DNA of 33,205 nt from Candidatus Neomicrothrix parvicella RN1 (GTDB lineage Bacteria > Actinomycetota > Acidimicrobiia > Acidimicrobiales > VFJN01): positions 1-33,205 of the forward strand of contig CAMDIH010000022.1 in the NCBI GenBank assembly GCA_945898515.1, given 5' to 3'. Both the position numbers and the translations under genes were made by a program. A model generated the notes under the pieces. It did no database searches, was not told the origin of the DNA, and saw only the letters and a program-made list of their open reading frames with translations. Shown piece by piece: positions 11,740 through 15,367 of this stretch (position 1 is its first letter; the number at the start of each line of letters is the position of its first letter).

Positions 11740-12699
11740 TTAGCCCTGAACCGGGGGAACCTCGGTGACAGGGGCCTCGGTGACAGGGGCCTCGGTGACA
11801 GGGGCCTCGGGAACGAGGGCGGGCGGAGGCGGGATAGCGGGCCCCTGACCCGACGCGATGCGAGCCTCACGCGCCTGTTGGGCCAGCAGGGCCAGGCGAC
11901 GCGCCTCGGCCTGCTCGGTAGCGACACGCGCCTCCTCGTCTTCGGTGCGCACTGCGGTGGCCACACTGTCGGCGAGAGCGGCACTAGCGGCGGCGGAGGC
12001 TTCGACCCGGCGGGCGGCGATGTAGCGACCCTCTTCCACGGCATCGGCGATGATCCGGCACATCAGGCTGCCCGATCGGATCGCATCGTCGTTGCCCGGA
12101 ATCACGAATTGAACAATGTCAGGATCACAATTGGTGTCCACCACCGCGATGATCGGAATGCCGAGTTTATTGGCCTCGGTGACGCCGATGTATTCCTTCT
12201 TGGTGTCCAGAATGAACACGGCATCGGGGAGCCGCTCCATCTGGGCGATACCCCCGAGGTTGCGTTCCAGTTTCTCGAGCTCACGGCTAAGCAGGAGCGC
12301 CTCCTTCTTCGGCATGGCATCGAACTCGCCCGAAGCCCGCATGCGGCGGTACTCCTGCATCTTGGCCACGCGCTTGCCGATGGTGGAGAAGTTGGTGAGC
12401 ATGCCACCGAGCCAACGCTGGTTGATATAGGGCATACCGACCTTCTCGGCGTAACTCTGGATCGGGTCCTGAGCCTGCTTTTTCGTCCCGATGAACAACA
12501 CGGTTCCGCCATCGGCGACGAGGTCTCGAACAAAGCTGTAGGCGGTCTCGATCCGACCCAAGGTCTGCTGCAGATCAATGATGTAGATACCGCCGCGCTC
12601 ACCGAAGATGAAGCGCTTCATCTTCGGGTTCCACCGACGGGTCTGGTGTCCGAAGTGAACTCCGGCCTCGAGCAACTGCTTCATGGTGACGACGGCCAC
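11740..12699 (-). CDS. rpsB: 30S ribosomal protein S2 with extended C-terminal tail
   Basis: S2 binds the back of the 30S subunit and is needed for S1-type interactions. The product starts [20 protein letters not shown], the standard S2 N-terminus, from GTG 12699 preceded by GGGAAGGGAG. Other motifs are [36 protein letters not shown] and [14 protein letters not shown]. At 319 residues it is longer than the usual 230-260 because of a C-terminal tail rich in Ala, Glu and Arg that ends in Pro-Val-Thr-Glu-Ala repeats. Similar tails occur in actinobacterial S2 proteins. It heads rpsB-tsf-pyrH-frr-cdsA. Confidence 0.96.
11761..11805 (-). repeat. Three-copy 15-bp tandem repeat in the rpsB tail
   Basis: Three identical 15-base units (CTCGGTGACAGGGGC on the plus strand) encode Glu-Ala-Pro-Val-Thr repeats at the C-terminus of S2. 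A degenerate copy lies on each side. The unit is in frame, so copy-number change would lengthen or shorten the tail without breaking the gene. Confidence 0.9.
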
Positions 12700-12727
12700 G
12701 CTGGGCTCCCTTCCCGTGGTTGGCTGT

Positions 12728-12744
12728 GTCGGCGGAAGGCCGAC
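12728..12744 (-). promoter_or_regulatory. Short hairpin in the rpsB leader
   Basis: A perfect six-base inverted repeat (GTCGGC, five-base loop, GCCGAC) lies about 29 bases upstream of the rpsB GTG, within a 200-base non-coding leader. A TAGGGT hexamer resembling an actinobacterial -10 box occurs at 12853-12858 without a convincing -35. Both are candidates only. S2 autoregulation is known in some bacteria, but nothing here proves it. Confidence 0.3.
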
Positions 12745-12899
12745 GCCGGACCTGGCGCCCTCCGCAGTGAAACAACGCAGGACGACCGCGGGATGGCCCG
12801 GGTGCTTGGTGTGATTGGTTCTCGGCACGGGAGGTCCCCGAGCCGAAGGTCAACCCTAGTGGCGCAGGGCGCTCTGCGGCCAGTGGACGGGCGCGGCTC

Positions 12900-14513
12900 C
12901 TACCCCGGGGGGCTCAAGGCGGCAGCAGCAGCCCAGGCCAACGCACCCGCGACATCCTCGCCGTAGCGAAGGGCCTCCCCCATCATTTGGTCGCCAAGGG
13001 TATCGACGAAGGATCGGCATCCTGGCGGGAGGCCGGCCAGGGCCAGGCCGAGCTCGCGATGGGCCTCGGCACTACCCGGTAGGCGGGTGTGGGCTCCCGG
13101 GCCGACGATCGGAACCACGATCTGCGTAGCCCCCGGTGCCCGGGTGGAGGGCACCGGCACGATCAGGTCGCCACGAGCCGCCAAGGATACCGCCCGGACG
13201 GTGGGGGGAATCGGGTGGCCCTGCAGTTCAAGCACCACCCCGGAAACCTCGCTGAGTTGGGCGGCGGACAGTGCGTGCCGATCCAAGGTGGCGTCGGTGG
13301 CCACGGCGTACCCGTCGAGGATCATCCCCCCCAGTCGGGTGGAGCCAACCGCCGCCAGGGCCGTGGCCAGATTGGCGCCCTCGTGAGGCGTTCCCAGAGT
13401 GGCCACCAGGCCAAGGTGCGCCAGCCATTCCACCCCGTGACGGGTTTCGAGCTCAATGAGAGCCAGCCGCACCACCACGCCGCCCTGTGAATGAGCGTAG
13501 AGATCGATCAGCACCCCGGGTTGTTCCGCCGCCATCGCCTCAATGAGATCGGCCAGGCGGGCACCACTGGTCCGCAGGTTGATCTGGGTGTCGGCGGGGC
13601 CGTACTCACTGGCGGGGATCGCCCCCAGCCCGTCGCTGGGATCAGAAGTGCGGCCCCCGGCATAGCTGAAGCGCAGCACATCAGATGCGCCATAGCCGAG
13701 GCCGGCGGTGTTGATATGGGTCACGGCGGCGTGCTGGCTGTTCGAGCCGAGACCGGCTACCAGCAGGGCCAATCGTCGCTCCACCGGCGGGGGTGCCTCC
13801 ACTGCGGGGGTCGAACAGGGCCGCTCGGCCTGCGCCCGGGCCTGCCCCCAGGCCGCCAACAGCACCCGTGCGCCGATCGCGATGCCCTCGGGCAAGCCCA
13901 ACCGACCGGCGTAGTGCCCCAACGTGGCGAGCGACTGACTCCCCGACCGCAACCAGTGCGCCCCGCGCCCCGCCAGGCCCACGGCGCCCCCCACTAGTTG
14001 CTCGATGGAGCGCCGCTCCCCCGCCGAGCCCTCCCCGGGGGGCTCGTCGAAGGGCACCAATCGCACCTCTGGCAGCCTGGGTCCGAACAGTGACGCCGGG
14101 TCGAAGTAGGCATCGCCCCGTCGGGCCCCAAAATGAAGATGATCCCGCGTGAGGCCTACCGGGTCGCCCTGCCGCACCCGCTGCCCCACCACCACATCGA
14201 TCCGGGCCAGGAACGAATAGGTGGTGCGCACCCCGTCGGGGTGACGGAGCGTCACATGCAATCCACCGGCCACCGACCCGGCAAAGGTCACCACCCCATC
14301 GGCCGCCGCCGTCACCACCGCCCCCGGGGCCGTCGCGTACTCGAGACCGCGATTGCCGGCGCCGTAGGGCGTGGTCGGCGGACGAAACGGGTCCGCTACC
14401 ACGGCATCGACAGGCGGGACATAGACGGAAAGGACAGGGGCGGCCTGTGCGGGCACGGCCAGCAGGCCCACCACCAGCACAGCGCCACCGAACACGGACG
14501 CGATGCGGGGCAT
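12900..14513 (-). CDS. Secreted M23-like domain fused to alpha/beta hydrolase
   Basis: A 537-residue exported protein. Residues 1-24 form a signal peptide (VVGLLAVPAQAA). Residues about 38-145 resemble an M23/LytM domain: PYGAGNRGLEYATAPGAVV, a beta core, and the HxH motif DHLHFGARRG (His125, His127). The first-zinc-ligand motif, normally HxGxD, reads NRGLE (Asn54, Glu58), so metal binding may be lost. Residues about 245-500 form an alpha/beta hydrolase: LALLVAGLGS, the nucleophile elbow YAHSQGG with Ser342, a plausible Asp449 (ARGDLIVPVP) and His475 (GAHTRLPG). The ATG follows GGGAGG. It lies between whiG and rpsB, where other actinobacteria carry an M23-type gene. It may act on cell-envelope lipids or glycans; the substrate is unknown. 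Confidence 0.8.
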   Translation of the reverse strand: MPRIASVFGGAVLVVGLLAVPAQAAPVLSVYVPPVDAVVADPFRPPTTPYGAGNRGLEYATAPGAVVTAAADGVVTFAGSVAGGLHVTLRHPDGVRTTYSFLARIDVVVGQRVRQGDPVGLTRDHLHFGARRGDAYFDPASLFGPRLPEVRLVPFDEPPGEGSAGERRSIEQLVGGAVGLAGRGAHWLRSGSQSLATLGHYAGRLGLPEGIAIGARVLLAAWGQARAQAERPCSTPAVEAPPPVERRLALLVAGLGSNSQHAAVTHINTAGLGYGASDVLRFSYAGGRTSDPSDGLGAIPASEYGPADTQINLRTSGARLADLIEAMAAEQPGVLIDLYAHSQGGVVVRLALIELETRHGVEWLAHLGLVATLGTPHEGANLATALAAVGSTRLGGMILDGYAVATDATLDRHALSAAQLSEVSGVVLELQGHPIPPTVRAVSLAARGDLIVPVPSTRAPGATQIVVPIVGPGAHTRLPGSAEAHRELGLALAGLPPGCRSFVDTLGDQMMGEALRYGEDVAGALAWAAAAALSPPG

Positions 14514-14590: not shown

Positions 14591-15367
14591 TCAGGCGGGT
14601 TCGCGCTCGGATGCCGCCATGCGGGATCGGAGCTGGATGACGGCCTTGGTATGGATCTGACACACCCGACTCTCGGTGACACCGAGGATCGAACCGATCT
14701 CTGCGAGGGTCAGACCCTCGTAGTAGTAGAGGGTGAGCACTGTTTTGTCCCGCTCGGGCAGGCGGGCGATGGCACCGGCGAGGATGTGCCGCATCTCCTC
14801 TACCTCGTAGGCCGCCACCGGGCCGAGCCCGTCGTCGGCCAACGTGTCGCCCATGGTCATGGAATCGCCTCGGTCGCTGCCGGCGAGCATTTCGTCCAGC
14901 GCCACGAGACCGGTGAAGGAGATCTGTCCGAGCGTGGCTTGGAGTTGATCGTCGGTGAGATCGAGTTCCTCGGCAAGTTCAGCATCCGAGGGGGTGCGGT
15001 GGAGTTCGCCCTGGAGTTTGGAATAGGCGTTTTCCATGGCCCGGGCCTTGGCCCGCACCGATCGGGGCACCCAGTCGATCGAGCGAAGTTCGTCGAGAAT
15101 GCTGCCTTTGATGCGGGAGATCGCGTAGGTCTCGAACTTGAAGCCCCGATCAAGGCTGAACTTCTCAATGGCATCGATGAGGCCAAAGATGCCGTAGGAC
15201 ACGAGATCGGCCTGATCCACGTTCTGGGGCAGACCACTCGCTACCCGCCCCGCCACATACTTCACCAGCGGCGAGTAATGCACGATCAACTGATCACGCA
15301 ACGCCTGCGTGTTATCGGCTTTGTACTCGGCCCACAGCCGCTCGAGGTCGGGATCAATATTGCTCAT
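14591..15367 (-). CDS. whiG: WhiG/FliA-family RNA polymerase sigma factor
   Basis: A 258-residue sigma factor with regions 2, 3 and 4. Region 2 contains RDQLIVHYSPLVKYVAGRV, QADLVSYGIFGLIDAIEKF and FKFETYAISRIKGSILDEL. Region 3 begins WVPRSVRAKARAMENAYSKL. Region 4 has LPERDKTVLTLYYYEGLTLA and the helix-turn-helix EIGSILGVTESRVCQIHTKA. It closely resembles Streptomyces WhiG, which starts sporulation, and the flagellar FliA group. Its place beside xerC, dprA and rpsB matches WhiG. No flagellar or sporulation gene is present here, so the regulon is unknown. ATG 15367 lies 28 bases after xerC; no clear ribosome site is seen, and sequence upstream in this frame is antisense to xerC. Confidence 0.9.
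   Translation of the reverse strand: MSNIDPDLERLWAEYKADNTQALRDQLIVHYSPLVKYVAGRVASGLPQNVDQADLVSYGIFGLIDAIEKFSLDRGFKFETYAISRIKGSILDELRSIDWVPRSVRAKARAMENAYSKLQGELHRTPSDAELAEELDLTDDQLQATLGQISFTGLVALDEMLAGSDRGDSMTMGDTLADDGLGPVAAYEVEEMRHILAGAIARLPERDKTVLTLYYYEGLTLAEIGSILGVTESRVCQIHTKAVIQLRSRMAASEREPA

Follow-up and report, generated by a model that had tools for sequence, protein, structure and literature searches.

A gene in the window, the 33,205-nucleotide stretch of Candidatus Neomicrothrix parvicella RN1 DNA analyzed here, encodes a protein in which an M23/LytM-fold domain that has lost its zinc site is joined to a lipase-like serine hydrolase, and the altered form of this domain, with asparagine in place of the first zinc-binding histidine (Asn-type, as opposed to His-type), is conserved among the fused relatives. 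The fold families of both halves are already known; the conserved Asn-type domain with a fused hydrolase is what is new. Degenerate LytM domains are known chiefly as amidase regulators, and here one appears to be strongly selected for another purpose, beside a predicted serine hydrolase and in a host order that is little studied and largely uncultured. Taken as a whole, the protein is on balance probably best explained as an envelope-exported protein in which a dead M23 binding or scaffold module tethers a working lipase-type hydrolase. In this reading, the M23/LytM-fold half of the exported protein would have lost the ability to hold catalytic zinc and to cleave peptidoglycan; we infer that it would be retained as a binding or scaffold module without catalysis, with peptidoglycan or a wall protein as its most likely partner, that the flexible linker would tether the Ser342-Asp449-His475 hydrolase at the envelope, and that the hydrolase would cleave an ester, whether in lipids, in lipoproteins or in wall polymers.

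The open reading frame begins with an ATG codon and runs uninterrupted for 537 codons. The features of the gene and its immediate neighbors, in positions of the window, are as follows.

12900..14513, minus strand: whole gene, encoding a 537-aa fusion, predicted to be secreted, of a degenerate M23 domain and an alpha/beta hydrolase (open frame, Pfam, relatives)
14439..14513, minus strand: predicted signal peptide, about residues 1-25 (hydrophobic stretch and AQA/AP site)
14079..14432, minus strand: M23/LytM-fold domain, residues 28-145 (Pfam PF01551, 4e-16; model pLDDT mostly >90)
14340..14354, minus strand: NRGLE, residues 54-58, where the HxGxD zinc motif is expected (alignment of relatives)
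14118..14162, minus strand: residues 118-132, an active-site loop of reduced length that leads into HLHFG (His127 alone conserved)
13818..14078, minus strand: linker, residues 146-232, partly disordered or helical and variable in sequence (pLDDT, identity 0.20)
13014..13817, minus strand: lipase-like alpha/beta hydrolase, residues 233-500 (DUF676, DUF7379, structural matches)
13815..13817, minus strand: Cys233, invariant (74/74 fused proteins)
13488..13490, minus strand: Ser342, predicted nucleophile in AHSQG (74/74 fused proteins)
13167..13169, minus strand: Asp449, predicted triad acid (74/74 fused proteins)
13089..13091, minus strand: His475, predicted triad base (73/74 fused proteins)
13017..13019, minus strand: Cys499, invariant (74/74 fused proteins)
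14591..15367, minus strand: WhiG-type sigma factor, upstream neighbor (Sigma70 regions 2, 3 and 4)
11740..12828, minus strand: ribosomal protein S2 (rpsB), downstream neighbor (Ribosomal_S2, 1.2e-96)

Beyond these neighbors, which are named from their Pfam families, tsf follows rpsB on the same strand as the fusion gene, and xerC, dprA and a ComM-type Mg-chelatase gene lie farther upstream. A sigma gene is found upstream on the same strand in 45 of 74 testable homologous loci; the WhiG-type sigma gene is absent upstream in the other 29, where rpsB is retained, and this suggests that whiG was lost or relocated in some lineages. The downstream rpsB is recovered in 71 of the 74 loci by script and in 73 once two overlapping frames are read. 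In M. tuberculosis, the M23-domain gene Rv2891 presumably also adjoins rpsB. A scan of the gene region for promoters and terminators gave nothing above chance.

When 60 related genomes were searched with the protein at a threshold of E 0.001, 40 matched and 22 hold both halves, in one frame in 21 and split by a frameshift in G017. A further genome (G035), in which the hydrolase lies at a contig end, counts as the 23rd hydrolase genome, and the M23 half stands alone in 14 of the 60, giving a set of 37 genomes that clearly have the M23 domain or, in the case of G035, the hydrolase that belongs with it. The remaining genomes gave no match (20/60) or a marginal one (3 more), so the fusion protein is dispensable. 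Among the 21 one-frame genomes, a stop interrupts the match in G015, and the G030 copy is truncated where its contig begins. A hydrolase-only profile matches the same 23 genomes at E 1e-40 or better and, at that level, none of the 14 genomes with the M23 half alone; no family member found in this way is a free-standing gene. The earlier note had named two separate genes, joined by sequencing error, as the finding that would undo the fusion; with 21 of the 23 hydrolase genomes (21 of the 60 searched) fused in one frame and no free hydrolase gene found, this explanation is excluded among the hydrolase genomes, and the fusion is a real protein that is widespread in this one actinobacterial group. 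The frameshift in G017 (L020, G017:C1:766515-768018) falls within the hydrolase and may be a sequencing error or mark a pseudogene.

A scan of named genomes confirmed 228 relatives, of which 80 were kept, with titles mostly of Acidimicrobiales, Acidimicrobiia or Actinomycetota; one of the two patterns used contains GNRG and so favors Asn-type rows. One locus with a stop inside the match (L080) was excluded from the counts, and of the 79 rows that remained 73 are fused, making with the window protein the 74 fused proteins to which the residue counts refer. The other sets of relatives were gathered without the GNRG pattern, the best-scoring 30 matches in each becoming loci, and some species are common to both sets. 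No plasmid-borne relative was found by tblastn against 72,556 plasmid records. Acidimicrobiia-type members of the family also turn up in four MAG records (L032, L035, L059, and L062) whose titles read Chloroflexota, Acidobacteria or Bifidobacterium breve; these titles are therefore probably wrong.

Export of the fusion protein is suggested by its N-terminal composition. The best 15-residue stretch of the window protein has a mean hydropathy of 2.47 and is followed by AQA/AP, which we take to be the cleavage site, while a similar hydrophobic stretch occurs in 83 of the 84 fused Asn-type rows whose upstream sequence was long enough, as does a small-x-Ala site downstream of the stretch (83/84). 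The signal peptide claimed in the earlier note is thus backed on purely compositional grounds, in the window protein and its relatives alike.

The Pfam Peptidase_M23 match spans residues 54-139 with an E value of 4e-16, above the cut-off, and the zinc site within this domain is degenerate, as had been claimed from the presence of HLHFG together with NRGLE in place of HxGxD. Among the 74 fused proteins, asparagine occupies position 54 in 73, the sole exception (L056) being a row that ends at a contig edge, and Arg55 and Gly56 are present in all; the conservation of N54-R55-G56 is far above chance. Position 58 is acidic in 69 of the 74, with Glu in 35, Asp in 34, Thr in 3, and Ala in 2. Within HLHFG, residues 125-129 of the window protein, the second histidine (H127) is kept in 74/74 and the first (H125) is histidine in 2/74. 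The degeneracy goes beyond what had been claimed, with a loop of seven residues and both catalytic histidine positions also gone: alignments with solved M23 enzymes place a seven-residue gap just before HLHFG, the model draws a single unbroken strand across residues 118-132, and the position of the second catalytic histidine, which canonical M23 enzymes carry in YxHL, is Phe in the window protein, histidine not being among the most frequent residues recorded for it in the relatives. Compared with an active M23 peptidase, the window protein therefore keeps the M23/LytM fold and lacks the HxxxD motif (NRGLE instead), a complete HxH pairing (HLH is read, with the first motif missing), and the second catalytic histidine.

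The loss of the zinc ligand and the loss of the loop go together. In a comparison of 151 distinct M23 domains (193 rows before identical segments were collapsed, with one contig-edge row dropped), Asn54 is accompanied by a short loop in 108 of 108 domains and His54 by a long loop in 37 of 41 (3 intermediate, 1 short), the last 2 domains being rows that end at contig edges. A histidine lies inside the loop in 36 of the 41 His54 domains versus 0 of the 108 Asn54 domains. Counted over 141 rows, the short loop of the Asn-type is 10 residues long in 105 rows and 11 in 3, and the loop of the His-type measures 17-20 residues in 29 of 31 rows. Elsewhere in this genome, two further proteins that are clearly M23 keep both motifs (HQGVD/HLHFE and HEGND/HLHFE) and serve as an internal control for the loss of the zinc motif.

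His-type domains occur in the same slot beside whiG or rpsB in other lineages of the phylum, some fused and some stand-alone, and phylum relatives outside the order retain H/D/H. That one rpsB-linked slot holds fused and unfused as well as zinc-type and Asn-type forms makes it a clean natural experiment. On an M23-domain tree of 91 chosen rows, which includes the motif columns, is built from few columns and has many unresolved forks, the Asn/His label needs to change three times: order-wide, in parallel in L116, and in a His54 row inside the order (L118) that has Tyr at the His127 position. L116, which sits within a His-type clade, lost His54 together with the long loop independently, for a second time. 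This Asn-type, short-loop member (also L208, G090:C66) of a His-type lineage outside the class lies away from whiG and rpsB, and both copies examined in family f58 (L208 and L209) adjoin other genes. The fused/alone label needs to change 14 times on the same tree, which requires that either losses or gains have recurred. A tree of the hydrolase with 61 rows (all fused rows, except one in four of the named set) follows lineage, the order (SH-aLRT 100), the outside family f58 (97), and the class set (94) each forming a single group. Since His-type fused relatives are found in sister lineages, the fusion is probably older than the zinc loss, and the simplest reading is one old fusion followed by loss of the zinc site in the order and by repeated loss of the hydrolase.

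Pairwise identity averages 0.52 in the M23 half, 0.39 in the hydrolase, and 0.20 in the linker. Measured against three relatives, dN/dS comes to 0.17, 0.18, and 0.22 in the M23 half, compared with 0.27, 0.26, and 0.33 in the hydrolase. Both halves are under purifying selection, and the degenerate M23 half evolves more slowly than the hydrolase. Because the M23 half is the better conserved one and occurs without the hydrolase in 14 of the 37 genomes, it likely has a role of its own; the targeting of the hydrolase to peptidoglycan by this half, as the earlier note proposed, is plausible and for the same reasons incomplete, the M23 half being more than an address tag. By its conservation and its dN/dS, the Asn-type domain is under constraint and not in decay. 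Asn54, Asp/Glu58, and His127 remain jointly present and might still bind zinc. They could also form a remodelled site that binds another metal or a peptide stem, with weak catalysis or sensing, an alternative to which we would give a low probability: random decay would not yield such invariance at N54, R55, and H127, the mostly acidic position 58 and the low dN/dS of the M23 half agree with a retained site, but both catalytic histidine positions and the loop are gone, position 58 is Thr or Ala in 5 of the 74 fused proteins, and asparagine is an unusual zinc ligand. Rated somewhat below this is the more elaborate conjecture that the M23 domain was remade throughout the order into a non-zinc pocket (Asn54-Arg55-Gly56, Asp/Glu58, His127, and the short loop) that would grip or sense peptidoglycan and control the tethered lipase, the replacement of His by Asn and the shortening of the loop having recurred in another family. 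If true, such a pocket would couple the state of the wall to lipid or lipoprotein cleavage at the envelope.

An AlphaFold2 model built with 53 sequences has a mean pLDDT of 86.6 and a pTM of 0.66, with pLDDT mostly >90 in both domains and <50 in the linker at residues 145-163 and 171-188; at this pTM, the relative arrangement of the M23 and hydrolase domains is undefined. In VIA-align comparisons, residues 28-146 match the LytM domains of H. pylori Csd3 (Z 20.2) and EnvC (Z 18.9-19.0), and the fold is common to Csd3, EnvC, DipM, and StM23 (PDB 4rnz, 8c0j, 7qrl, and 9gy1; Z ~19-20). The zinc ligands are missing from EnvC-type domains as they are from the window domain. Unlike the M23/LytM proteins, the window protein has Asn for the first zinc His, a loop that is seven residues shorter, and a C-terminal serine hydrolase, of which none is described among the LytM-domain matches listed. 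Rv0950c, Rv2891, and Rv3786c of M. tuberculosis are likewise actinobacterial M23-domain proteins, in a paper that treats active versus degenerate zinc motifs and reports an intact zinc site in Rv0950c (PMC8594824). The part of that paper drawn on here mentions no hydrolase fusion for the M. tuberculosis M23 proteins, whereas the window protein has one (PMC8594824). A literature search, which covered few of the subscription journals, found no paper on the M23-hydrolase architecture.

The structural likeness to EnvC (its LytM domains are among the best matches), the absence of zinc ligands, the stand-alone occurrence of the domain in many relatives, and the established role of degenerate LytM domains in amidase activation, as far as the consulted part of the source goes (PMC8594824), would suit an EnvC/NlpD-like activator of peptidoglycan amidases to which the hydrolase is an add-on. 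Such an activator is nevertheless improbable, ranking below both pocket proposals, as no amidase partner turned up: the genome itself, ~90% complete, has no match to Amidase_3, Amidase_2, or NlpC/P60, and 12 of the 23 fusion genomes have no Amidase_3 match, 8 of these 12 being at least 90% complete. The absence of these amidase families weakens the classical form of the activator explanation.

The tethered hydrolase of the preferred reading is recognized by sequence families around its nucleophile and by structure over most of its length. The window protein scores 21.1 against DUF676 (cut-off 20.3) and 24.8 against DUF7379 (below the cut-off of 33), in matches that cover just 64-80 residues around the nucleophile, and at E 0.01 the relatives match DUF676 in 49 of 53 and DUF7379 in 50 of 53 cases. 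Residues 242-505 match a Streptomyces lipase (Z 19.6) and Candida lipase B (Z 18.8) in VIA-align comparisons, within a range of Z 16.7-19.6 for the lipases 5h6b/5h6g (Streptomyces), 1tca (Candida lipase B), 1isp (Bacillus subtilis LipA), and 7v3k (MAJ1). These lipases share the Ser-Asp-His order and the AHSQG nucleophile elbow with the window hydrolase; they differ from it in that identity is only 18-21% and in that the window protein adds an M23-fold module in front and two invariant terminal cysteines, Cys233 and Cys499, which could possibly form a disulfide. Ser342, Asp449, and His475 lie where the earlier note placed them, their codons being confirmed by eye on the DNA, and are conserved in all or all but one of the fused proteins, as listed above. 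With a predicted alpha/beta hydrolase fold and an ordered, conserved triad at the sequence level, we infer that the C-terminal domain would hydrolyze esters.

That the hydrolase is a nutritional extracellular lipase, with the M23-like domain merely aiding folding or secretion, is quite improbable, since conservation is higher in the M23 half, which lacks the hydrolase in 14 of 37 genomes, and since the locus is fixed beside rpsB and not near lipid genes, even though lipase-type folds are the closest structurally and the fusion is carried by the lipid specialist Candidatus Microthrix (genomes L047 and L065). All Candidatus Microthrix MAGs are predicted to encode secreted lipases according to the part of the source consulted (PMC11495043), and the fusion in this genus may be one of them. 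For such lineages, the fusion gives the lipid or ester chemistry of the envelope a named candidate. Three distant hydrolase-like proteins (L205, L206, and L207) have hydrophobic, membrane-like N-termini without an M23 match, and their nucleophile elbow reads AHSSG or AHSQA.
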